The notes beneath the pieces were generated by a model. The model saw only the letters and a list, made by a program, of their open reading frames with translations, had not been told where the DNA came from and ran no database searches. Both the position numbers and the translations under genes were made by a program. A stretch of 64,000 nucleotides of DNA from Coriobacteriales bacterium OH1046 (GTDB taxonomy: Bacteria > Actinomycetota > Coriobacteriia > Coriobacteriales > Atopobiaceae), in assembly GCA_004010535.1 (NCBI GenBank), contig RQYE01000004.1:186001-250000 (forward strand), written 5' to 3'. Positions 11,945 to 40,560 of the stretch are shown here, in pieces (the first letter of the stretch is position 1; each line of letters begins with the position of its first letter).

Positions 11945-13016
11945 CGCGCTCGCCCTCCTTCTTGGAGAAAACGATCCTATAGGTTATGAAGAACTCGCAG
12001 CCGATGATGAAGAACAGGATGATGCCGGTGAGGATGTCTCCGAAGCTGTGGTTGAGGCCGAACGCCGTCGAGATCTCGCCGGCACCGCAGCTCATGAAGA
12101 CCAGAAGAAGGCTCGACGCCACCATGGTGATGGGGTTGAACTTCGCGAGCCACGCGACCATGACGGCAGTGAACCCACGCCCGCCCGCGATGGTGGTCGT
12201 GATGGTGTGAGCCGTCCCGCCCACGAGGAGCAGGCCGGCGAAGCCGCAGATGGCACCCGAGAGCAGGAGCGTGCGCACGATGACCTTCTCGACCTTGATG
12301 CCCACGTAGCGGGCGGTATTGGGGCTCTCGCCCACGACCGAGATCTCGTAACCGTGCTTGCTGTACGCGAGGTAGATGTGCATGATGACGGTGAGGATGG
12401 CGACGAGCAGGATGTTGAGCAGGTACTTGTAGCCGCCGACCTGCGGGAGCCAACCGGCTTCGGTGCTCTGGTTGATGATGCCGATGTTCCCGGAACCCTT
12501 GGGAACCTCCCACACGATGACGAAGAAGGCCACGAGCTGGGTGGCGACGTAGTTCATCATGAGCGTGAACAGGGTCTCGTTGGTATTCCACCGCGCTTTG
12601 AAGAGGGCGGGCAACAGCGCCCACAGAGCGCCGGCGCAGGCCGATGACACGAACATAAGGGGGATGAGCAGGGCATTGGGCAGCCTGTTTCCCAAGATGA
12701 TCATGCACGAGGCCGCAGCGAGACCCCCCACGAGGATCTGGCCCTCGCCGCCGAGGTTCCAGAACCTCATGCGGAAGGCCGGCGTGAGCGCAAGCGAGAC
12801 GCAGAGCAGGATGGCCAGCTCCTGGAGCAGGATCCAGACCTTGCGCGGGGTTCCGAAGGCGCCCTTGACCATGGCGGCGTACACATCGACGGGGTTGAGG
12901 CCCGTCGCGATGGCGGTGATCACGCCGCACGCGACCAGCGCGGCCACGATCGCTCCGAGGCGGATCGCCAGAGCCTGGGGCAGGGGCATCTCCTTGCGTT
13001 TGGCGATATGGATCAT
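11937..13016 (-). CDS. nupP: Nucleoside ABC transporter permease (NupP/YufP-like)
   Basis: 359 residues, polytopic, with the hallmark stretches RMRFWNLGGEGQILVGG and VMVAWLAKFNPITMV of the first BMP-family permease. It begins at ATG 13016, directly after the nupO stop at 13017-13019, and overlaps nupQ at its end, so translation is probably coupled. It pairs with NupQ in the inner membrane and is powered by NupO. Confidence 0.88.
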   Translation of the reverse strand: MIHIAKRKEMPLPQALAIRLGAIVAALVACGVITAIATGLNPVDVYAAMVKGAFGTPRKVWILLQELAILLCVSLALTPAFRMRFWNLGGEGQILVGGLAAASCMIILGNRLPNALLIPLMFVSSACAGALWALLPALFKARWNTNETLFTLMMNYVATQLVAFFVIVWEVPKGSGNIGIINQSTEAGWLPQVGGYKYLLNILLVAILTVIMHIYLAYSKHGYEISVVGESPNTARYVGIKVEKVIVRTLLLSGAICGFAGLLLVGGTAHTITTTIAGGRGFTAVMVAWLAKFNPITMVASSLLLVFMSCGAGEISTAFGLNHSFGDILTGIILFFIIGCEFFITYRIVFSKKEGERDV

Positions 13017-35093: not shown

Positions 35094-36272
35094 ATGTATC
35101 GCAGAGAATCATCCAAAACGGTCGAAAGCAGGCTTCTCGAGCCGCGCAGGTTCATACAGATCGTCAGCGGACCCCGCCAAACAGGAAAGACGACCGCAGT
35201 CAAACAGGCCCTGCAGTCCGCCTGCGTGAGCAGCCGCTACGCCACCGCCGACGGACTTGTGGTCCCGCCCGCCTCGTGGCTGGAATCGGAGTGGTCGCAG
35301 GCACGCGATCTTGCCCGCGTGAACGGCAGGGCCATCCTCGTCCTCGATGAGATTCAGAAGATCAAAGGATGGGCTGACCTCGTAAAGCGCCACTGGGATG
35401 AGGACAGTTGGAACGACGTCCCTCTTCTCGTAGTGCTCACCGGCTCTTCATCCCTCCTTCTCCAAAAAGGGTACTCGGAATCTCTGGCAGGTCGATACGA
35501 GGTCATACGCTCCGGCCACTGGTCTCTCACAGAGATGGAGACTGCATTCGGGTACAGTATGGAAGACTATCTGCTCTTCGGCGGATACCCTGGCGGCGCT
35601 GCACTCAAAGATGACGAGGGGCGCTGGCTCGAATACATGCGCGATTCCATCATCGAGGCAACGCTCTCGCGCGACGTTCTGCAGATGGAGGAGATTCGCA
35701 AGCCCGCTTTGCTCAGGAACCTCTTCATCCTCGGGGTACAGTACTCCGCACAGGAACTCTCGTACCGCAAAATGCTGGGTCAGCTGGATGACAAGGGCAA
35801 CACGGCCACGCTCGCCCATTACTTGGAGCTTCTTTCGCAGGCGGGACTCCTTACGGGACTCCAGAAGCACGGTGCGAAAAACATCAACTCCCGCGCGAGT
35901 TCCCCCCGCCTCCTCGCCTACGACCCCGCACTCATGTCAGCTATATGGAGCGAAGCTCGGGAACGTCTGCTCGGCATTCCCGATAATCGCGGGCATCTTG
36001 TGGAATCTGCAGTTGGCGCACGCCTGCTCGCCCGCAAGGATCGCGAGCGTTTCGAGGTCTACTGGTGGCGGGACGGAGACAAGGAAGTCGACTTCGTGCT
36101 CAAGAAAGGCGATGCGCTCATTGCCCTCGAGGTGAAGAGCGGACGCGTGAAACCCGCAGATGGCATGACAGAATTCCGAAAGCTCCACCCCCATGCCCTT
36201 CCCATGGTCGTGGGCGACGTCAACACGCCTGTGGAGACATTCCTGCGCGACGAAGTGCACCTGTTCGAGTAG
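35094..36272 (+). CDS. AAA_14 / DUF4143 ATPase
   Basis: 392 residues from ATG 35094, with GGGAGGCGGCA ahead. Walker A is GPRQTGKTT near residue 26 and Walker B is ILVLDEIQ near 80. VLTGSSSLLL and SLAGRYEVIRSGHWSLTEM follow, typical of this family. The C-terminal DUF4143 domain has DKEVDFVLKKGDALIALEVKSG, a PD-(D/E)xK-nuclease-like motif. Such genes are common mobile-type accessory genes with no firm role. The region around it is a little lower in GC than its neighbours. Confidence 0.9.
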   Translation: MYRRESSKTVESRLLEPRRFIQIVSGPRQTGKTTAVKQALQSACVSSRYATADGLVVPPASWLESEWSQARDLARVNGRAILVLDEIQKIKGWADLVKRHWDEDSWNDVPLLVVLTGSSSLLLQKGYSESLAGRYEVIRSGHWSLTEMETAFGYSMEDYLLFGGYPGGAALKDDEGRWLEYMRDSIIEATLSRDVLQMEEIRKPALLRNLFILGVQYSAQELSYRKMLGQLDDKGNTATLAHYLELLSQAGLLTGLQKHGAKNINSRASSPRLLAYDPALMSAIWSEARERLLGIPDNRGHLVESAVGARLLARKDRERFEVYWWRDGDKEVDFVLKKGDALIALEVKSGRVKPADGMTEFRKLHPHALPMVVGDVNTPVETFLRDEVHLFE

Positions 36273-37214: not shown

Positions 37215-38943
37215 CTATCTCGTGAAACCCTTGAAGAACTCCCAGAGATAGGCCGCCTCGGGCTTCCAGTTCCAGTGCGCTTGGTTCTTGATCGCCACGA
37301 GCTTCATGATCGGCGTGCCATCGGCACCGTTGAGCACGCCCTCCTGAGCCGATTTCCCGCCGAGCATGATGTCGTTGGTCTCGTCGAAGGCGATGCCATA
37401 CCACTCGTTGAGCGACATATCCATGTCTGCGGAAACCTCGAGGCCGTTGATCCTCTGATAGGCTTGGATGAGCGGGAAGATGGGCACGCGCGGATCGACC
37501 TGCGCGATGGTCACGCCCTCGTCCACGGGGAAGGCATCGGGGCTGGAGAGATCCACGGGGATCATGCCGAAGAAATCATGGTCTCCGCAGAGGTAGGCAA
37601 AGGGTACGGCAGGGCCATCCCAGGCGGCGGCGAGCTCGGAGATCTCCTCCTTGTCGATGCCGGGGCCGGAAACGCCGCCTACAGCAGCAAATGTATCGGC
37701 ATATTTGACACCGTAGAGTTCGGAGGCGCTCGAGCCGGCGGAGAGGCCGGTCACGTACACACGATGCCCATCGATCTGCGGATATTTCTTCTTGATCATG
37801 TCAAGCCAGGTGATGATGCGATCGTCCTGCAGGCCGTCGCAGCCGAAGAAGTTGGAGCGGCTCGTCGGAGCCGGATTCGTACACCACATCCTGCCATTCG
37901 GGAGCTGCCACGATGAGATCCTCCTGCAGCGCGAGCTCCAGCCAGCCGCTCGACTCGGCCTGCGCGCGGGTGTCGTTGAGGTTGCCATGCAGGGTCACGA
38001 TCAGCGGCACGCTGCCCTCGGCAGCATCGGCGAGCCTCGTCGGCACGTATTCGAACCAGGTATAGAAACCCTCCAAACCATCGACCTCGGCATTGTACTT
38101 CTCCACGTAGTCGAACTGCGAGAAGTCGGGAATGCTGTAGAGCGGATAGGGATCGGTCAACTCGGCGATGTTGGCCATGTAGAACTCGGTCCTCTCGTTG
38201 TGCTGACGGTAATTCTTGGAGAATATCTGCTCCCAGCAGCTGGCGGAAGCGGCGGTGATATCGGCATCGCTGGCCACGACCACACGCTTCATCGGATCGC
38301 CGGCATTCTCGTAGATACCTTCGCCAACCTGCTCGGCACCGTTCGCGGCAATGATCGCGTCGACGGCAGCCTGCGGCGCATTGCAGAGATAGGCGGGCAC
38401 AAAGGGCACGCCGGCGGCAGCGGCATCGGTGCCGCCGAAGGTCATGATGCCGGCCACGAAATACAGCTTGGGGGCCAAGGAGCCCAGCACGAAGTCAGCC
38501 CCCTCGTCCACACCGATGACCTTGACGTTGCTGGCGGGACCGGCAGAGGCGGCAAGCTCGATGAAGGCGTCGACGTCTGCGGAGGTGTACGCCTCGCCGT
38601 CTGCGGGGTTCACCACGGTGACCGCACCCGCATAGGCCTCGATGCTCTGCGCCAAGCCCAGTTGGCCCACGAGCTCGGCGGCACCGTCGGCATCCCTGTT
38701 GCCGGCAAAGACGTAGTAGTTGGGCGAGAGGAGGTTGGAGTGGTGCAGCTCCGCTCCGTCATCAGCGGCGTTATAAGAAAAGTTGCCCTCGACCTCGAGG
38801 AGCTTGCCGAACGGCTCGGTCGTGGGCTGGACGGCAGGAGCGTTGCCACCCCCCTTGCGCGAGCAGGCGGCAAGGACGGCTGCGGATGCGGCACCCAAGC
38901 CTGCCAGAAAGCTCCTGCGGGACATACGCGTGTGCTTTTCCAT
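37215..38943 (-). pseudogene. Frameshifted Tat-lipoprotein alpha/beta-hydrolase (esterase)
   Basis: The start MEKHTRMSRRSFLAGLGAAS at 38943 gives a Tat signal with lipobox LAAC. Residues run in frame to VVYESGSDE near 37862, then the frame changes to give SNFFGCDGLQDDRIITWLDM. Total length 1729 bases is one over a multiple of three, so a single extra base in GAGCCGCTCC (near 37856-37862) explains it. Removing one C gives DERSNFFGCDG and an open frame of about 575 residues. The later part has GLSAGSSASEL (GxSxG) and LHGNLNDT, like PHB-depolymerase-type esterases. It is either a broken gene or a sequencing error, as no homopolymer is present. Confidence 0.8.
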
Positions 38944-39020
38944 GACTTCTCCCATCTTGTCCGATGCATTCTATTCGATCCGCTGTATACGAGCGCGCAC
39001 ACGATGATGTGCTTGAGAAA

Positions 39021-39089: not shown

Positions 39090-40560
39090 CTACTCCTTGC
39101 CCTCCATCTGCGCGGGAGTGAGGGCGGTGAACCATGCCACCACGAAGGATACGATCATGCCGATAGCGATGGCGATGCAGCCGTTGACCATGTTCGCCGT
39201 ATCGCCGCCGAGGAAGGACAGGGGCGAGAAGATGCCTTGGACGGGGGTATAGAGAACCACACCGGTGAATGCAGCGTAGAGACCGGAAGCGGCACCGCCG
39301 ACTATCGAGGCGATCCAAGGGCGCTTGTAGCGCAGGAACACACCGTAGAGCAGGGGCTCGCCGACGCCTCCCACGAACTGGGTGATGAAATAGCCCAGAG
39401 TGAGGTTCTTCTGTTCAGGATCTCTCATGCGCAGCCAGACGGCAAGCGCAACACCGGATACCGTGAATGCTTGGACAGTGGCGGCAAGAAGCAGCATGGT
39501 GTCGGTACCGGTAGAGGCATAGTCGGCGAGCGCGATCGCGGCCATGCCCACGTGCATGCCGGTCATGACCAACGCGGGCCAGAGGGCGGAGATGACCGTG
39601 ACGGCCAAGAAGCCGAGCGGGGTGCTCGCAAGCCAGAAGAAGAAGCCGGAGATACCCTTGCCGATATAGTCGCCAAGAGGCGCAAGGAGGCACATGGCGA
39701 GCGGCATCATGATGACCATGGTGATGAACGGCGCAAAGATCGTGCGTACGCTGGCCGGCATCTTGGCATTGAGGAACTTGTTGATGGGAGCCATCACGGC
39801 CACGCAGAGCAGAACGGGGATGAGGGTCTGAGCGTACCCGTTGATAGGCGCGGGGATACCGTAAACCGAGAAGGTCGCCTCCCCGACGCCCTGCAGTGCG
39901 ACGAAGCCCGGCTCTATGAGGACGGCACCCATGAATGCGCCGAGGAAGCCGTTCATGCCGAGCTTCTGGGCAGCCGCAAATCCCGCGATGATGGGCATGA
40001 AGTAGAAGGCTGCGTTATACACCATGTTGCAGAGGAAGATGAAGTGCGAATCCTCGGAAACAAGATTCAAGAGCGTGGGTCCGAAGACGGCCGCGAACGT
40101 CTTGAACAGGGCGCCGCCCACGAGCACGGGGATGAGCGCGGCAATTTGGCGGTATACGCGTTCGATGACGAGCGCCGCCCACGAGCACGGGGATGAGCGG
40201 GACGACCGAGCCGGAGAGATAGTTGAGGACATTGTCGAGCACTGCCTTGGGAGTGAACGGAGCCTTCTCGTCGACGGCATCGAGGTTCTCGTCGACGGCT
40301 TTCTCGGCGGCAAGGCCGGCGAGCGAGATGATCTCACCGTAAACCTCCGGAACATTGGTGCCGATAACCACCTGATACTGGCCACCCTGCTTGGCAACGC
40401 CCATGGCACCCCGAACGGCCTTGACGGCCTCATCGTCCACCACCGACGCATCCACCAGATTGAAGCGCAGGCGCGTCATGCAATGCTGCACCGAGCGCAC
40501 GTTCTCCCTGCCTCCTATGGCTTCAAGGACATCGGCTGCGATCTGCTTGTTGTCTGCCAT
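39090..40560 (-). pseudogene. PTS EIIBC (glucose/beta-glucoside type) disrupted by a 61-bp duplication
   Basis: EIIB comes first from ATG 40560 (MADNKQIAADVLEAIGGREN), with the phospho-Cys in VQHCMTRLRF, then EIIC. A 28-bp sequence occurs twice, at 40111-40138 and 40172-40199, 61 bases apart. Since 61 is not a multiple of three, the frame breaks after VVPLIPVLVGGA. Deleting 61 bp gives 1410 bases, exactly 470 codons, and a sensible protein (LIPVLVGGALFKTFAAVFG). EIIC resumes in another frame and is open to the end. The partner EIIA is at 45834 and the GH1 gene at 46390. Confidence 0.85.
40111..40199. repeat. 28-bp direct repeats flanking 33 bp within the PTS gene
   Basis: Two exact 28-bp copies begin GCGCCGCCCACGAGC and end GGGGATGAGCG, at 40111-40138 and 40172-40199. 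The 33 bases between them are unlike the repeats. Recombination between the copies would remove 61 bp and restore the reading frame. Confidence 0.92.

Follow-up and report, generated by a model that had tools for sequence, protein, structure and literature searches.

Coriobacteriales bacterium OH1046 carries a PTS EIIBC gene whose reading frame breaks after the EIIB domain, at a point where two identical 28-bp sequences enclose 33 further bases. How did this arrangement arise, and what does it mean for the gene? The original prediction, made from the DNA letters, described a 61-bp duplication and offered two interpretations: a phase switch, in which recombination between the copies would turn the transporter on and off, or a gene in decay. 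Our comparative analysis points to a different origin, namely that the 61 bases very probably record a natural off-target spacer integration by a type I-E Cas1-Cas2 that has since been replaced. In what follows, the window is the whole 64-kb stretch of DNA that was analyzed.

The interrupted gene and its counterparts in relatives

The features of the gene and of the insertion, in window coordinates, are as follows:

39090-40560, minus strand: PTS EIIBC gene, interrupted, with its EIIB and EIIC parts in different frames
40162-40560, minus strand: EIIB part of the gene (PF00367, domain match)
39090-40109, minus strand: EIIC part of the gene (PF02378, domain match)
40111-40138, plus strand: first copy of the 28-bp target, an exact repeat that resembles an I-E CRISPR repeat in the plus orientation
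40139-40171, plus strand: 33-bp insert, interpreted as an integrated spacer, whose length and starting C fit the I-E spacers of the family
40172-40199, plus strand: second copy of the 28-bp target (the duplication), identical to the first

Sequence comparison within the window places the two exact copies and the 33 enclosed bases as the original prediction had them, and the predicted break of the frame likewise holds, EIIB and EIIC no longer sharing a frame. The length expected of the gene once the unit is removed, 470 codons, is that of the uninterrupted gene in G001, the closest relative (a member of the genus with about 92% DNA identity), where 1410 bases make up 470 codons including the stop. 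The wording of a 61-bp duplication has to be corrected: only 28 bp are duplicated, while the remaining 33 bp are new and single-copy in the assembly, such that the 61 added bases do not form a tandem duplication of 61 bp. The feature was absent from the output of the tandem-repeat finder. The pair is nonetheless distinctive, being the only exact repeat of at least 20 bp within 300 bp in the window. Moreover, in the fetched loci that served as a control (644,925 bases in overlapping loci), direct repeats of at least 18 bp at a spacing of 56-66 bp all belong to an array-like series or are CRISPR-type repeats, with the sole exception of the 28-bp pair.

The EIIBC gene was then compared with those of related genomes, a check that had been proposed with the original prediction. 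All ten relatives examined (L109-L114 and L004-L007, where L109 is G001's own record) possess a single 28-bp site without the insert, and in all ten the bases between the two flanks number exactly 28. This uniformly single site indicates that the OH1046 genome gained the 61 bases by insertion. Codon differences between OH1046 and G001 are mostly synonymous on both sides of the lesion, with 22 synonymous and 7 nonsynonymous differences in the first 120 codons and 60 and 16, respectively, in the last 340 codons (stop included); in the EIIC part, the codon comparison with G001 found no further internal stop. Together, these data suggest that the lesion appears to be recent relative to the split of OH1046 and G001, or that parts of the gene are still in use. 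The transporter itself has probably been inactivated, by the shift of frame and the resulting separation of EIIB from EIIC. No plasmid match to the EIIBC gene that would suggest a plasmid origin of the region was found, and no structured RNA was matched by Rfam in the window.

Likeness of the insertion to type I-E units

The insertion, at 28 + 33 = 61 bp, matches the repeat-spacer unit of type I-E arrays exactly. In the G001 array at contig C136, 16 I-E repeats of 28 bp flank 15 complete spacers, all of which are 33 bp long; in a second I-E array fragment of the same genome (C69), this length is shared by 17 of the 19 spacers, the remaining two measuring 34 bp. The commonest repeat-spacer unit is 61 or 62 in each of the 12 family arrays tabulated. 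The E. coli type I-E protospacer is likewise given as 33 bp in the excerpted text of one study, which adds that its PAM-derived first base was formerly assigned to the repeat (PMC10011333). A 29 + 32 geometry, comprising a 29-bp duplication and one later substitution, is also possible, because the insert ends in the base that precedes the 28-mer on its left side in G001.

The first base of the insert was also considered. In G001, C follows the repeat in 16/16 spacers at C136 and in 14/19 at C69, and C is the commonest base at this position in 11 of the 12 tabulated family arrays, the exception being L069, where G exceeds C by 7 to 6. The 33-bp insert begins with C on the plus strand, as most family spacers do; the chance of a C is about 31%, and as a PAM-derived first base it offers weak support on its own.

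The target itself resembles I-E repeats in sequence. In an end-to-end alignment in the plus orientation, the 28-mer shares 18/28 (C136) and 19/28 (C69) positions with the G001 I-E repeats, and 15-19 positions with the 12 family repeats compared; this comparison was chosen after the idea of CRISPR had arisen, although its register is set by where the duplication starts and stops. Among the 127,946 28-mers of the window, 26 reach 18 identities to the C136 repeat, including the feature's own two copies. When the same 28-mers were scored by a matrix built from 14 family repeats, the target ranked as the fourth-best distinct site, with three sites scoring higher. In folding, the target behaves much like its own shuffles (z -0.90), in contrast to the G001 repeats (z -2.8). 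As the folding typical of a CRISPR repeat is missing from the 28-mer, a working mini-array at the insertion is unlikely.

Nor does the insertion fit a functional CRISPR array in other respects, as the target lacks a strong hairpin and the genome lacks matching cas genes.

Cas systems and a shared chromosomal slot

Of 140 family genomes, 15 carry type I-E Cas1 (TIGR03638 above cut-off); G001 is among them and possesses a complete I-E operon. The same model found no I-E cas1 in the OH1046 assembly, nor any I-E Cas1 above cut-off in five further named relatives. Cse1 (PF09481) was not found in OH1046, and among five genomes of the genus it occurs in G001 only. A search of the OH1046 assembly for I-E repeats within 3 mismatches of the genus pattern found none. 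The only Cas1 of OH1046 belongs to an operon of type I-C, the type being read from gene order.

We also considered this resident I-C system as the source of the insertion and rejected it: its array in OH1046 has 32-bp repeats and 34-37-bp spacers, and the target agrees with the I-C repeat at no more than 14/28 positions in any register.

The flanks of the two systems correspond. The sequence before the G001 I-E operon matches, at 90%, the sequence before the I-C system in OH1046; on the other side, G001 contig C69 begins in the I-E array and OH1046 contig C17 ends in the I-C array, and both share the same downstream flank. These matches indicate that the two systems occupy one chromosomal slot, which holds I-C in OH1046 (G000; the ends of C19/C17, L033 and L133) and I-E in G001 (C136/C69, L066 and L094). 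No array was found in the stretch of G003 read at this slot (L105).

Within the OH1046 slot lies a degenerate I-E-like 28-mer in the orientation of the array:

G000:C17 about 109846-109873 (L133 3847-3874), minus strand: isolated I-E-like repeat, degenerate, in agreement with the G001 I-E repeat at 22/28 positions

Such a match is rare, in that none of 265,972 positions in other family loci reached 21 or more, and a score of 22 did not occur at any of 20 million random positions. We read this 28-mer as a putative remnant of an I-E repeat; one repeat hence suggests that a type I-E system was formerly present in the slot of OH1046.

Two further observations concern G001. Beyond its array, contig C69 carries solitary degenerate repeats, identical at 24/28 positions at L094 3544 and at 21/28 positions at 2321 and 1974. 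Separately, a stretch of about 140 bases (L093 about 12313-12453) has about 15 further matches in G001, at 75-97% identity; this dispersed repeat element is not listed in the other four genomes of the genus.

Origin of the insertion and fate of the gene

In the course of events that we infer, a type I-E Cas1-Cas2 formerly present in the OH1046 lineage would have captured a 33-bp DNA fragment, presumably foreign, and integrated it off target, at a 28-bp sequence in EIIBC that resembles a CRISPR repeat by chance. Two strand-transfer cuts placed 28 bp apart, then filled in as in a genuine array, would yield the observed order of repeat, spacer and repeat. The 61 added bases would have shifted the frame and parted EIIB from EIIC, probably at the cost of the transporter's function, and the I-E system would later have been lost from its slot, where type I-C now resides.

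Against I-E integration stand the lack of I-E cas1 and cse1 in the OH1046 assembly, the missing protospacer and the three window sites that are more repeat-like than the target. With regard to the protospacer, the 33 bases were not found at up to 3 mismatches elsewhere in their own genome or in the 139 other family genomes. Three overlapping exact patterns of 19-20 bases from the insert had no match in IMG/VR, and one exact 20-base pattern had none in genome_contigs. When the insert was searched by blastn against phages, none of 38 records covered 80% of the query, and the best match (20/33 bases, enterobacterial phages, E 0.09) was judged to be chance; against plasmids, 3 of 6 records covered at least 80%, at 85.7% identity and E about 3, and were judged likewise. 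Most spacers have no known source, and the lack of a match is for this reason close to neutral as evidence.

A slim chance attaches to a general error of repair or replication without any CRISPR enzyme, whether a template switch or a staggered break that was filled in and patched with 33 bp. The absence of I-E genes from the OH1046 assembly is in its favor, as is the failure of the phage, plasmid and family-genome searches to find a protospacer. Such an error, however, predicts neither the exact 28 + 33 geometry, nor the in-register likeness to I-E repeats, nor the starting C, and a search of the genome with up to 3 mismatches allowed found no second copy that could have served as donor of the 33 bases.

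An artefact of assembly or sequencing is very improbable, as it would need to create both 33 bases that have no other occurrence in the assembly and a duplication with the I-E lengths. What speaks for it comes from the gene next door. Adjoining EIIBC downstream is an esterase-like gene (identified by eye; window 37215-38955, minus strand), which in OH1046 forms two overlapping frames, compared with one frame of 619 codons in G001; the alignment of the two contains one gap, of 2 bases, which shifts the frame, and this gap could itself be a sequencing error.

An off-target spacer integration would not be new in kind. Nivala, Shipman and Church are said to have described in 2018 (Nat Microbiol 3:310) such integration by E. 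coli I-E Cas1-Cas2, with duplication of the target, and reportedly mentioned candidate natural cases. Excerpts of two later papers cite that work for non-canonical spacer integration by the E. coli enzymes (PMC11788318, PMC9456107), and the first of these attributes the observations to overexpressed Cas1-Cas2 (PMC11788318). The E. coli events resemble the one proposed here in placing spacer-sized DNA outside CRISPR arrays; the OH1046 event differs in being native, and in lying within a gene of an uncharacterized bacterium whose assembly lacks I-E genes. For type V-C Cas1, too, the excerpted text of another study mentions off-target integration away from the CRISPR locus (PMC13034035), a laboratory observation on a different CRISPR type whose repeats and spacers are not of the I-E lengths. 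A canonical I-E array shares with the insertion its 28-bp repeat, its 33-bp spacer and the C at the spacer start; the OH1046 feature, unlike such an array, is a single unit in a coding gene, without adjacent cas genes or a strong repeat hairpin. Among the papers listed by our literature searches, none described a natural gene-disrupting case in its title or the start of its abstract, which does not prove that none is in print.

To the kind of event known from E. coli, OH1046 would thus add a scar that arose natively and broke a gene, in a genome where a different CRISPR type now occupies the slot. Such a case would illustrate that off-target spacer integration can leave lasting mutations. It also suggests a search rule, a 28-bp duplication with a 33-bp insert at a repeat-like site that is empty in relatives, by which the rate of host mutation through CRISPR adaptation might be estimated, and scars of this form may serve as fossil markers of CRISPR systems that have since been exchanged. 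A broader proposal is that CRISPR adaptation acts as a natural insertional mutagen whose scars outlive the I-E system, and that chance loss of the unit restores the gene, creating accidental reversible gene switches; we consider this unlikely.

Exact 28-bp repeats can recombine or slip, which makes an evolved phase switch conceivable, and the unit could also be lost passively if its 28-bp copies recombined. As in phase-variable genes with short direct repeats, a frame-breaking unit lies between exact repeats; in contrast to those genes, the repeats are unconserved in relatives, the unit contains unique sequence and a single state was seen. With the pair absent from 10/10 relatives, and with the adjacent esterase-like gene also frameshifted relative to G001, there is next to no chance that the repeats evolved to turn the transporter on and off. 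The original alternatives thus part ways: the switch is not supported, and geometry and sequence point to a one-off spacer integration; decay fits, given the broken EIIBC frame and the lesion beside it. Two lesions in one cluster, unless the second is a sequencing error, favor decay over a switch.

The cluster around EIIBC further comprises genes for an alpha-L-rhamnosidase, an AraC-type regulator, a PTS EIIA and an FGGY kinase. Beside this sugar cluster lies a gene for an AAA_14/DUF4143 ATPase (window 35094-36272, plus strand).
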